A DNA stretch of 64,000 bases from an uncultured Cohaesibacter sp. GTDB taxonomy: Bacteria > Pseudomonadota > Alphaproteobacteria > Rhizobiales > Cohaesibacteraceae. The notes beneath the pieces are model-generated. The model saw only the letters and a program-made list of their open reading frames with translations. It was not told the origin of the DNA and searched no databases. The position numbers were made by a program, and so were the translations under genes. The stretch covers positions 1,364,001-1,428,000 of the forward strand of contig NZ_OY762905.1 in the NCBI RefSeq assembly GCF_963666525.1, read 5' to 3'. Below, piece by piece: positions 26,405 to 29,634 of this stretch; position 1 is the first letter of the stretch, and each line of letters begins with the position of its first letter.

Positions 26405-26693
26405 CAGGTAAATCTGCTAGTCCCTGCAACAAATCGCCTCAAATCGAAGGCAATTCACCGATTTTCTTCCCGCATTGCATGACCGCATCAGTAAATTTAC
26501 TGAAATGCCATCGAGGTTTGCACATTTTCTATTGCACAGAGACAATATATACATAATTTTACTTATGAGCCCTCACAAGGCAGAGCACAGAAACAACAAT
26601 GCCGCCTCCCACCAACACAAGGCGAAAGACGGCAATCCAGTACTTTTGTTAGAAAAAACACCAATCCGCAGGCAACGCGGCGCTCAGATCGCG
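26405..26693. other. intergenic region between the CoA-transferase promoter and the CYTH gene
   Basis: About 290 bases, A/T-rich near 26520-26570. I see no gene and no clear terminator for the minus-strand CYTH gene. Confidence 0.45.
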
Positions 26694-27194
26694 TCAGGGC
26701 AATCCATTCACAGCAAGAGACTTGTTCTTGTAGCCCTTGTCACTGGTCACATCCTCACCGAACCAGTCCGGAGCAACAAACCGCGACGCCGCTTCGACTG
26801 TGGCAAATTCGACCTCGACCAATTTCAATCCATCCAACCCACCATGGAATACATCGAGCTCGAAACGAAGCCCATCTGCCAGCACTCCCACGTAGCGCGT
26901 CTTCTTGACCCGGCGCCCCTTGGTCGCTGGCCAGAAGCTGTCGAACTGGTCGGCAGAAATCGGCACCTCGATTTCCTTGCGCAACAGGGTGCCATCGGAC
27001 TTCAGCGTCATGAAATGAGCAGCATCCGCACCGCAGCCTTTCCGGCGCACCCGCATTTCAACGGAATCCGTGGCAGACGTCAGATAGCCCTGCGCGACAT
27101 CCCTGGCCTTGAGGGGGGTCAGGTCTGGCAGGGCACGCAACAGGAACTTGCGTTCGATTTCAACGCTTCCCTCCGTCTGCTCGACAACGCTCAT
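26694..27194 (-). CDS. CYTH domain protein (triphosphate tunnel metalloenzyme family)
   Basis: This 166-residue single-domain CYTH protein has the ExExK signature E12-I-E14-R-K16 near the N-terminus. Alternating basic and acidic residues of the tunnel follow (RVRRKG, LRKEIEVP, FELDVFHGG, KLVEVEFATVE). The family binds triphosphates or polyphosphate and includes inorganic triphosphatases and class IV adenylate cyclases. Its ATG overlaps the ParA stop (ATGA), and ParA overlaps the CHAD gene. CYTH and CHAD domains are often fused and act on polyphosphate; here they are separate genes with a ParA between them. Confidence 0.9.
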   Translation of the reverse strand: MSVVEQTEGSVEIERKFLLRALPDLTPLKARDVAQGYLTSATDSVEMRVRRKGCGADAAHFMTLKSDGTLLRKEIEVPISADQFDSFWPATKGRRVKKTRYVGVLADGLRFELDVFHGGLDGLKLVEVEFATVEAASRFVAPDWFGEDVTSDKGYKNKSLAVNGLP

Positions 27195-27943
27195 TTCAGG
27201 GCCACCTTCTTGCGCATCTCGCGATAGAGATCCTGATAGGCCTTTGAGGCTGCACAGCCCGGTGCGCTGGCCAGCACCGGCGCCCGATGCACACCCATGC
27301 GCTCGACATCGGACGTGAAGGGCACATAGGCGGAAAGGAACTGTTTCTTGTATTGGCTCGTCATCTCGTTCATCAACTCGCCATGCAGCGACTTGACATT
27401 CTGGACCATTGAGAAAAAGGCTGCCAGCTTCTTGAGCGGAATGTCGTTTTCCTTAAAAAAGTCAACCAGTTGATCGAATGTTCGCTGTGACAAAGTGGTG
27501 GGAATGACCGGCACCAGCACCATGTCGGACGCCTTGAAGACGCTCTCAGACAGGGTCGAAATATTCGGCGGGCAGTCGAGCAGAATGACATCATAGTCTT
27601 TCTTGACCGTCTTCAGCGACTTCTTCAGGCGCGACCGGCTGTTCTTCATGCGGGACAGGAAGACATCGAAATTGCGAAAGCTCATATTGGCCGGCAGGAT
27701 GTCCAGATCATCATAATTGCTGCCACGGATTGATTTGACGAACCGGTCCTCATCCTTGAAAAACAGCTCGTCCGTCAGCTTCCTGGATGGCTTGACCCGA
27801 AAATAGAAGCTCGAGGCCCCCTGCGGGTCAAGATCACAGAGCAGCACTCGCTTGCCCGCCTCGGCCAGAGCATAGGCCAGATTGACGGAAGTTGCGGTCT
27901 TGCCAACGCCTCCCTTGTTGGAATAGCAGGCGATGATCTTCAT
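27191..27943 (-). CDS. ParA family ATPase (orphan)
   Basis: This 250-residue P-loop ATPase of the ParA/Soj group has the deviant Walker A KGGVGKTA at residues 10-17 with the signature lysine, Walker A' DLDPQG near 39 and Walker B ILLDCPPN near 125. There is no parB and no helix-turn-helix extension, so it is not a chromosome or plasmid partition operon. It is sandwiched with 4-base overlaps between a CHAD gene upstream and a CYTH gene downstream. ParA proteins without ParB position cargoes such as carboxysomes and chemotaxis arrays. The neighbours suggest polyphosphate granules as the cargo, which is an inference. Confidence 0.92.
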   Translation of the reverse strand: MKIIACYSNKGGVGKTATSVNLAYALAEAGKRVLLCDLDPQGASSFYFRVKPSRKLTDELFFKDEDRFVKSIRGSNYDDLDILPANMSFRNFDVFLSRMKNSRSRLKKSLKTVKKDYDVILLDCPPNISTLSESVFKASDMVLVPVIPTTLSQRTFDQLVDFFKENDIPLKKLAAFFSMVQNVKSLHGELMNEMTSQYKKQFLSAYVPFTSDVERMGVHRAPVLASAPGCAASKAYQDLYREMRKKVALK

Positions 27944-29475
27944 TCACTTTCCTCCCGCAACTTGAACAGGGTCTTGAATGTCTGTTGCGTTTCCTCGCTG
28001 TCAAAGCGGGCAAAATTCTCGGCCACGAGCATGCGTTCGGCTGCCTGCCGCTGGTGCAGGATGGCAATCAGCGCCCCAACGCTCTGGGCAATCTTCATTT
28101 GGGTGGGCTTGTCGCGAAACTTGCGCCCGGAGAGAAAATCGGACAGCGCATCGATCTGCACCGAGCAGTCGTTGAACCGGCCCAGATTGTCCTGCAGTCG
28201 CTTCATCGGCTTGATCACCGACCGGATGGCCTCATCGGGGAACAACGGCGCGAAGAATTCCATCAGATAACGCAGCTTCTTGCAGTGAATGCGTAGCGCA
28301 TGCACATCGTCGTCCTTGCTGCTCTCATCGATCGCAGCCGCTGTCTTGCAGATCTTGCGGTAACGCTTCCAGATGAGATGGCGGGCATAGTCATGCGCCC
28401 CCTGCTCGGCACTCGGTCCTTTCTGCAAGTGCTCGGGTGCAGCCAGCAGATCGGACAGCTCCTGCATTTCCTTCTGATAGCGATCGCTGATCAGATGATC
28501 TGCAAGCCGCACGGCGGCCTCCTCCCGATCGCGCAGGAACAAGGCGAACATCTGTTCAAGCCCATCATGCAGCGGCGCCGGGATCAGATCGAAAAATTTC
28601 TGCTTTTCAAGAAGATAGACATCAAGATCCCGAAGCTTTCCCGTCTTGGCCATCAGCCGGGAAAACCGCCGCTTGAGATCCGCAGTCACCTCGTCGGAAT
28701 AGACCCCCTTGAACAGGCTGAGTACGGATCGGATCTTGCGCAGGGCAATCCGGTAGTCATGCAGGAATTCGGTATCGAGATCGTTGACGATACCCTTCTC
28801 GTTTACTCGTGCGGCGGGCAGATAGGCGGCGATGATGTCCGTCGCCACGGCAAAGGCACTTTCCTCCTCACCAATCACGATGGCGGGCTTGATCACCCCT
28901 GCCGGGAAAGACAGGCACAGCCCGGAGAGGAAGCCAACAAGATCACGACTGCCACCAAGGGCATAAAGCGACTCGCGCATCATCTCCAGCGCCCTGTCAT
29001 AGCCACGCACCGGGCGCAAAAAGGCAATCAGTCCAATCTCGCCACCAACCATCTGCACTTCAAGAAACCGGACCTTGAGATGGATCTTGCCATCGTCATC
29101 CACGAGAGCCATCTGGAGCGAGCGGAAGCGAAAGCGGCAGAGCGGCATCAACGCCCTGAGATCAGACAGATCCTTGAGCGCCTTGCGCACATCCCCCTTG
29201 GGCAGCTCCCTGACGGGGCCTCCCTCGACAGGACCTTTCTGCTCCTTTTGCGTACCATTGCGGTCCAGTAGCAGCAATCGCCCCTCAGTGCCGATCAGCA
29301 TCCGGCCAGACCTGATCAAGGGCTGGTGGAACATGTCCAGCAGCGCGGCGTCAACCAGCTCCGTATGGTCGGACAGAACGGGCTTCAACCGGCCGCAATC
29401 AAGCCCGGCGAGGCACTCAAGCGAACGGTTTGCAATAACAACAAGGGGATCATCAATCTCAGCCATGGCACGCAT
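27940..29475 (-). CDS. CHAD domain protein with N-terminal extension
   Basis: The protein has about 511 residues. The C-terminal half (about 215-500) is a CHAD domain, an alpha-helical polyphosphate-binding module; typical conserved histidine and basic segments are FLHDYRIALRKIRSVLSLFKG (first 20: FLHDYRIALRKIRSVLSLFK), KLRDLDVYL, VHALRIHCKKLRYLMEFF and LQDNLGRFNDC. The first 190 residues resemble a degenerate CYTH domain in layout but lack the ExExK motif. The ATG at 29475 is chosen over a TTG at 29502; its ribosome-binding site is weak. The stop overlaps the ParA start. It probably binds polyphosphate. Confidence 0.88.
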   Translation of the reverse strand: MRAMAEIDDPLVVIANRSLECLAGLDCGRLKPVLSDHTELVDAALLDMFHQPLIRSGRMLIGTEGRLLLLDRNGTQKEQKGPVEGGPVRELPKGDVRKALKDLSDLRALMPLCRFRFRSLQMALVDDDGKIHLKVRFLEVQMVGGEIGLIAFLRPVRGYDRALEMMRESLYALGGSRDLVGFLSGLCLSFPAGVIKPAIVIGEEESAFAVATDIIAAYLPAARVNEKGIVNDLDTEFLHDYRIALRKIRSVLSLFKGVYSDEVTADLKRRFSRLMAKTGKLRDLDVYLLEKQKFFDLIPAPLHDGLEQMFALFLRDREEAAVRLADHLISDRYQKEMQELSDLLAAPEHLQKGPSAEQGAHDYARHLIWKRYRKICKTAAAIDESSKDDDVHALRIHCKKLRYLMEFFAPLFPDEAIRSVIKPMKRLQDNLGRFNDCSVQIDALSDFLSGRKFRDKPTQMKIAQSVGALIAILHQRQAAERMLVAENFARFDSEETQQTFKTLFKLREESE

Positions 29476-29599
29476 AGTTCCACGGAACAACCATGGGCGC
29501 AAGCCATCAGCAAACCGACCAATTGCCTATCCTCAAAACTATTTAAGCAGGCCTTCTGAAACCGCCTTCAGCCTTGCCCAGAAGGCCACACGACTGAAA

Positions 29600-29634
29600 A
29601 GCAAAAGGCACCCGATGATCGTCACCGGATGCCC
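29600..29634 (-). terminator. rho-independent terminator after galK
   Basis: Minus-strand stem GGCATCCG / CGGGTGCC (one G-U) with TTTTGCTTTT downstream. Confidence 0.75.

Follow-up and report, generated by a model that had tools for sequence, protein, structure and literature searches.

The DNA analyzed here is a 64,000-nucleotide stretch from an uncultured Cohaesibacter sp. (contig NZ_OY762905.1, positions 1,364,001 to 1,428,000; hereafter the window), whose genome (G000) is a single contig of 5.18 Mb. On the minus strand of the window lies an operon of three genes that encode, in order, a CHAD protein, a ParA-type ATPase and a CYTH enzyme. An initial annotation, made from the sequence alone, had reported that these genes overlap by 4 bases at each junction, and had proposed that the ParA protein distributes polyphosphate (polyP) granules with the CHAD protein as its adaptor. 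The overlaps were confirmed from the coordinates, and both junctions consist of the bases ATGA (27940..27943 for CHAD/ParA and 27191..27194 for ParA/CYTH, minus strand).

The central gene (27191..27943, minus strand) encodes a ParA-type deviant Walker A ATPase of 250 amino acids that matches Pfam AAA_31 with an E value of 1e-42. Its deviant Walker A motif, SNKGGVGKT, is encoded at 27896..27922 (minus strand), and by sequence the protein is a ParA/MinD family member with the KGGxGKT motif, the signature lysine and the Walker B aspartate. The residues K10, K15, D37, D39, D123, K184 and R220 were identical in all 81 aligned sequences. The structural model (predicted local distance difference test score, pLDDT, of 82; predicted template modeling score, pTM, of 0.83) was matched best by a Soj-type ParA, with a template modeling (TM) score of about 0.8. 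A membrane MinD-like ParA is disfavored, as the modeled chain extends just four residues past its last helix. A natural fusion of CHAD and ParA was rejected as well, since the long frame found in one genome (G772) is merely open upstream and the CHAD gene there lies in a different frame.

The CHAD gene (27940..29466, minus strand) encodes a protein of 508 amino acids that matches Pfam CHAD with an E value of 2e-59 and is a putative polyP-binding cargo adaptor. Its candidate start codons are the ATG at 29466, which was taken here, the ATG at 29475 that was chosen in the initial annotation, and a TTG at 29502. The model of the protein (pLDDT 84, pTM 0.60) was closest in fold to 6qva, the CHAD protein of C. 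tepidum (CtCHAD) with polyP, with a TM score of 0.91 by target and 33% identity. The polyP-binding residues of CtCHAD are H253, R256, R260, R296, R418 and Y419 (PMC6537752), and these align with H236, R239, R243, R279, R399 and Y400 of the window protein, in a CHAD domain that spans residues 204-501 approximately (27964..28857, minus strand). In the 81 aligned sequences, H236 was conserved in 78, R239 and R243 in 79 each, R279 in 80, R399 in 81 and Y400 in 80. Judged from this alignment, the window protein has the conserved basic contact residues of a polyP-binding CHAD protein.

The N-terminal part of the CHAD protein (28906..29466, minus strand) is predicted to adopt a triphosphate-tunnel (CYTH-like) fold. 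The tunnel-fold matches of the protein included ygiF (5a60, E=2.7e-8 for the whole protein), ThTPase (5a65, E=1.2e-3) and class IV cyclases, but the scores of the N-terminal part were far weaker than the CHAD match, and Mediator Med18/20 chains scored equally. The ExExK motif was found in this part in 0 of the 81 aligned sequences, which sets the protein apart from fusions of an active triphosphate tunnel metalloenzyme (TTM) with CHAD, such as ygiF. This tunnel-like part is apparently without catalysis. From the fold model and the alignment, the description of a plain CHAD protein was revised to that of a CHAD domain behind a tunnel-like part that lacks ExExK. A second, weaker CHAD match occurs elsewhere in the window's genome (G000:C1:250334-250645, L020).

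The third gene (26694..27194, minus strand) encodes a CYTH/TTM enzyme that was identified by profile and structure matches as a relative of NE1496 from Nitrosomonas europaea. Its Pfam CYTH score of 19.6 bits is under the cut-off of 23.2 bits. A profile built from the CYTH proteins of the genus matched NE1496 with an E value of 2e-59, and the only solved relatives at E<=0.001 were 2FBL and 3TYP, both of which are NE1496. At the N. europaea locus itself (L075), the product of the CYTH gene is the same as 3TYP except for the first of 152 aligned positions. The E12-x-E14-x-K16 motif (27147..27161, minus strand) is intact, as had been stated in the initial annotation, and was kept in 57 of 59 aligned sequences, the remaining two having gaps at these positions. 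With ExExK and the arginine, lysine and glutamate residues of the tunnel, the window enzyme is, on sequence grounds, a triphosphatase of the type of NeuTTM, the enzyme that we take NE1496 (PDB 2FBL/3TYP) to be. NeuTTM hydrolyzes tripolyphosphate with high specificity (PMC3440374). As a member of this tripolyphosphate-specific type, the CYTH protein is more likely to remove short chains than to trim the polymer, and the earlier suggestion of trimming was changed accordingly.

To place the operon among its closest relatives, contigs of GTDB genomes were scanned with the ParA alignment, and the best 80 of 373 relatives were kept (two of these loci, L055 and L056, are genomes G003 and G005 again). 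They comprise 65 alphaproteobacteria, 9 betaproteobacteria, 5 gammaproteobacteria and one record named Enemella (Actinomycetes). This last record (L068, JAFKDC010000001.1), named Enemella evansiae (Actinomycetota), carries an operon of the alphaproteobacterial type and is possibly contamination. In all 80 loci the CHAD and ParA genes share a strand and CHAD is the immediate 5′ neighbor; the gap between them ranges from -7 to +10 nucleotides and is -4 in 42 loci. The CYTH gene lies directly 3′ of ParA in 58 loci, in two of which (L058 and L079) it is split between frames; among the 22 others, four have less than 900 nucleotides of sequence remaining. The CHAD-ParA pair persists in these 22 loci, and also in the 34 loci without a match to a small ribbon-helix-helix (RHH) gene that is described below. 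No other constant gene was found in the flanks of the 80 loci; a cluster of neighbors from 31 loci, judged from the sequences, was a mix of ABC-type ATPases and Ruegeria flanks and not one gene. The gene order thus supports CHAD, and not CYTH or the RHH protein, as the partner that accompanies every ParA examined in the closest clade.

These data also bear on the possibility that ParA moves nothing, and is instead an ATP-dependent switch or chaperone that acts on the CHAD and CYTH proteins and controls polyP turnover. BcsQ and FleN, which act on other complexes as a switch or chaperone, were among the structural matches of ParA, and the operon does place a polyP-binding protein and a triphosphatase alongside ParA. 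However, the best fold and sequence matches were of the Soj/ParA type and not BcsQ, and CYTH is not adjacent in 22 of the 80 loci while ParA and CHAD stay paired. We regard a switch or chaperone role as rather unlikely.

The distribution of the trio was determined in a family sample of 20 genomes, including that of the window, of which 18 belong to the genus and two to other genera. Orthologs of ParA, CHAD and CYTH occurred in the same 11 genomes, always side by side and with the order conserved, while the remaining nine (G007 among them is 64% complete, and G001 has 8% contamination) had no ortholog of any of the three genes. Within the genus, this corresponds to 11 of 18 genomes with the complete trio and 7 with no member of it. 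Weaker matches to CHAD in G001 (28%) and G015 (25%) and to ParA in G002 and G008 (38-39%) were judged to be other proteins. The search for conserved synteny that the initial annotation had recommended thus found the CHAD-ParA-CYTH order in most genus members and far beyond, and the possibility that it is unique to this strain was rejected.

In the window, gal genes (galK) lie upstream of the trio and a coenzyme A (CoA) transferase pair lies downstream. The gal genes adjoin the trio in 8 of the 10 other genus genomes that hold it, and in G009 and G010 the trio stands apart from the gal and CoA-transferase genes, neither of which was found within the 18 kb read. Terminator-like hairpins flank the trio on either side, one of 13 pairs between galK and the CHAD gene (29606..29634, minus strand) and one of 14 pairs past the CYTH gene (26600..26634, minus strand), although the count of 3 compared with 3.8 expected from shuffled sequences represents no excess. 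A scan at the trio found no sigma-70-like promoter.

In terms of inheritance, the two Nitrosomonas loci were informative. The nearest kin by identity of their ParA, CHAD and CYTH proteins were largely the same alphaproteobacteria, namely Paracoccus, Shinella, Falsochrobactrum and a Hyphomicrobiales metagenome-assembled genome. Because all three proteins have these kin largely in common, the CHAD-ParA-CYTH set seems to have been transferred as a unit. The distances of the three proteins are correlated (r of 0.75, 0.63 and 0.64 over 59 loci), for which shared descent alone would suffice. Partition of a plasmid of its own is disfavored as the function of the set, as a search of 72,556 plasmid records gave 8 with a match to ParA at E<=1e-40, Paracoccus accounting for 6. 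On two Paracoccus plasmids (L218:5255-6249 and L219:5261-5707), the operon runs on into a NUDIX gene, which is followed in one of them by a second CYTH gene.

In many loci a small gene lies directly 5′ of CHAD and encodes a protein of about 50-65 amino acids with a lysine-rich tail and an RHH match (for example L062:4267-4464, L091:2766-3002 and L030:7067-7264, with about 40 further loci). Pfam RHH_1 scored above the cut-off in two of four typical members, and one member weakly matched ParG (E=0.014). A profile built from 22 of these proteins matched 46 of the 80 loci at E<1e-3, 41 of them with more than 60 bits. The gene also precedes CHAD in G009 and G010, but no match to the profile was found in the window or in its genome, which therefore lacks the partner that a ParF-ParG pair would have. 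A ParB-type adaptor, the partner in a ParABS system, was likewise absent among the window neighbors tested by Pfam (CHAD, CYTH, galK and CoA transferase). The earlier description of ParA as an orphan without ParB consequently applies to the window but does not extend to the 46 relatives and the two trio-bearing genus genomes (of 11) in which the RHH gene precedes CHAD. A search of 39 genomes, most of them without an adjacent RHH gene, found one in four (G009, G010, L117 and L127), and the copies in L117 and L127, two Ruegeria, are broken or divergent. In L103 and L109, a different small charged protein of 103-107 amino acids occupies the RHH position, and that of L103 had no significant Pfam match.

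The RHH gene is preceded by the palindrome TGACGTCA, with the fuller form GTGACATCATGACGTCAT. The palindrome was present 5′ of CHAD in 38 of 41 loci with an intact RHH gene, in 3 of 8 with a weak match and in 0 of 29 with none, while L092 and L093, which have no upstream sequence, were outside this test. The difference between intact and none gave a Fisher P of about 1e-16, uncorrected for kinship. The 80 loci together span 0.96 Mb, and at other places in them the core occurred 10 times, which is about chance level; it did not occur in the 64-kb window. A site matrix (42 sites, 20 informative columns, and a threshold that retains about 90% of the known sites) marked 40 of the 80 loci, with one extra place in L078 at a distance of 6 kb. 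When the matrix was applied to 1.2 of the 5.1 Mb of G009, it marked one place, before the RHH gene, and none in the reversed sequence. This single site, from the one quarter of G009 that was read, is more in keeping with an operator than with a centromeric array. By this pattern of presence and absence, the RHH gene and its palindromic site tend to be lost together. The gene and the site are a new finding, and constitute a frequent fourth part of the system that is absent from the window.

The presence of this fourth part raises the possibility that the set arose from a partition module of the plasmid type and has kept its action on DNA, with CHAD and CYTH tuning it to the phosphate state. The lysine-tailed RHH gene, the palindrome that accompanies nearly all its intact copies, the weak match to ParG and the occurrence of ParA on the 6 Paracoccus plasmid records would all fit such a descent. 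Set against them are the joint loss of gene and site in many loci when CHAD is present in all 80, the single site in the portion of G009 that was read, and the lack of ParB among the window neighbors tested. We consider continued action on DNA to be quite improbable.

The pairing was also approached from the CHAD side, using a phylum sample of 398 genomes. Among the top 30 Pfam CHAD matches of this sample, four belonged to the CHAD subfamily of the window (scores of 274-704, window included), and although they were chosen without regard to ParA, all four have ParA next door. No such ParA was found within the 2.6-3.7 kb read around the other 26, for which the subfamily score was at most 133.

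Taken together, the results are consistent with CHAD being a cargo adaptor and ParA its ATPase, the two acting on polyP granules, and we give this reading a chance that is just short of even. The pairing of CHAD with ParA is indicated by the position of CHAD 5′ of ParA in every one of the 80 loci, including those without CYTH or RHH. An adaptor role is indicated further by the four CHAD-subfamily members that lie beside ParA, by the all-or-none occurrence of the trio in the 20 family genomes, and by the published ppk1-parA-CHAD linkage in Acidithiobacillus. Of the granule proposal in the initial annotation, the ParA and CHAD parts are favored by the wide synteny and by the intact ParA and polyP-contact residues, while the role given to CYTH is not.

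In the proposed mechanism, the CHAD domain would coat the polyP granule, as the near-invariant contact residues and the published CHAD proteins suggest, and ATP-bound ParA dimers would reside on the nucleoid, in keeping with the Soj-like fold and the lack of a C-terminal extension. By analogy with other ParA systems, contact with granule-bound CHAD may lead to hydrolysis and release of ParA, and the ParA gradient thus formed could space the granules and share them between the daughter cells. The tunnel-like N-terminal part of the CHAD protein, which has no catalytic motif, may act in docking. Where CYTH is present, it would hydrolyze tripolyphosphate from polymer turnover, as published for the N. 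europaea enzyme. In loci that carry it, the RHH protein is most likely a repressor of its own operon that acts through the palindromic site; the window has neither. A more specific form of the proposal, in which CHAD and ParA form a dedicated machine that spreads horizontally and actively partitions granules over the nucleoid, with the tripolyphosphatase and the autoregulatory RHH protein as accessories, is offered more tentatively, at less than even confidence.

Several observations weigh against a role in granule positioning. The contact between ParA and CHAD, the binding of DNA and the effect on granules are all extrapolated from the ParA family. A long disordered basic N-terminal tail is frequent in ParA activators, and the CHAD protein model has no such tail, while the RHH protein has one. 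The scan for relatives used two peptide patterns and favors close kin, and at least 51 of the 80 loci are from Roseobacteraceae or Paracoccaceae. Among 397 genomes of the order, ParA at E<=1e-35 was found only in this genus, so the distribution is patchy. The polyphosphate kinases (PPKs) do not discriminate either. Among 50 genomes, namely the 20 family genomes and those of 30 of the 80 loci (49 distinct, as L055 repeats G003), PPK1 was present in 42 and PPK2 in 48, with at least one in every genome. Because this includes the genus members without the trio, PPK counts as a precondition rather than as support. Near the operon, a PPK gene was found in just one of the 80 loci (PPK2, L082) and PPK1 in none, and PPK genes as constant neighbors were rejected.

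The wider ParA subfamily provides further points of this kind. In the phylum sample, 59 genomes had a ParA with at least 200 bits to the family profile, and in each of them the sequence on either side of the best hit was inspected, some of the stretches being short where contigs end. CHAD adjoins ParA in 7 of them, two of these being the window and G1032, which is the L130 contig. The other 52 have no adjacent CHAD, which argues against an obligate link in the wider subfamily, so that other ParA of this group have different partners or none at all. A Bacteroidota plasmid ParA of the subfamily (41% identity) likewise had no CHAD in the stretches read. A CHAD gene anywhere in the genome was present in 52 of the 59 ParA-bearing genomes, compared with 150 of the 339 others (Fisher P about 1e-10, uncorrected for kinship). 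Loci L161-L185 and L297-L325 hold sister ParA genes of the same subfamily with no adjacent CHAD, most of these genomes having CHAD elsewhere. In a ParA tree of 76 proteins (made by a quick method, with some long branches), the subfamily (63 rows) was split from the rest with full support in the Shimodaira-Hasegawa-like approximate likelihood ratio test. Its 63 rows consist of a clade of 34 that are all CHAD-linked, 7 CHAD-linked members at several deeper forks, and 22 that are unlinked. In three of the 7 deep CHAD-linked loci, CYTH adjoins ParA on the opposite strand.

It follows from such numbers that the genes could merely be co-expressed for phosphate homeostasis, with a ParA cargo that is unrelated. 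This would agree with the 52 of 59 subfamily ParA genes that are not beside CHAD, and with the partners of the non-CHAD sister genes, where all ten neighboring open reading frames tested were unrelated genes. The adjacency of CHAD and ParA throughout the closest clade, in three classes and with compact junctions, argues the other way, and simple co-expression is in our opinion improbable.

If granule positioning is the correct reading, this would be the first system in which ATP drives the positioning of a phosphate-polymer condensate. In the open-access literature searched, no description was found of the CHAD-ParA-CYTH order, of the linkage in N. europaea or of a ParA for polyP granules. In the available part of a 2025 review, AlgP is the sole entry for polyP granules, the use of energy in placing them is left open, and the proteins that place granules in C. 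crescentus are yet to be identified (PMC13052382). The CHAD-ParA pair provides named candidate genes for the energy question in harmless bacteria such as Paracoccus denitrificans (L074), Ruegeria and N. europaea (L075). The significance of the triphosphatase activity was described in 2012 as far from clear (PMC3440374). The positioning reading, if true, would place the N. europaea triphosphatase in a functional setting.

Among known systems, type Ib plasmid partition (ParF-ParG) combines a small ParA with an RHH gene and a palindromic site. The set described here is similar in its small ParA and, in relatives, in the RHH gene with a palindromic site, but the order is RHH-CHAD-ParA-CYTH, and the profile finds no RHH gene in the window or in 34 of the 80 relatives. 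NeuTTM, of which the window CYTH is a close relative, is encoded after ParA in N. europaea; the link to CHAD and ParA is not mentioned in the available part of its description (PMC3440374) and was read here from the genes. In Acidithiobacillus, a conserved folD-ppk1-parA-CHAD group has been published and was interpreted, in the available parts of these papers, in terms of cAMP signaling or plasmid partition and with no positioning reading (PMC6416229, PMC10892726). It resembles the operon of the window in that a CYTH-CHAD gene adjoins parA, and ppk1 also belongs to the cluster, but differs in order and neighbors, its ParA being compared by published description only. The initial remark that no system of this composition had been described therefore holds, in the literature available, for the CHAD-ParA-CYTH order but not for ppk1-parA-CHAD clusters. 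The McdA-McdB system of carboxysomes likewise consists of a ParA-type ATPase and a cargo-bound partner with a cargo that is not DNA (PMC6328274, PMC13052382). In the present case the partner would be the CHAD protein and the cargo a polyP granule, and the signature lysine, which is missing from McdA of S. elongatus (PMC6328274, PMC13052382), is retained in the window ParA. Finally, AlgP of Pseudomonas aeruginosa links polyP granules with DNA and is required for their even spacing (PMC9239181), but it is a histone H1-like DNA-binding protein and not an ATPase, whereas the candidate for positioning described here is a ParA-type ATPase paired with CHAD.

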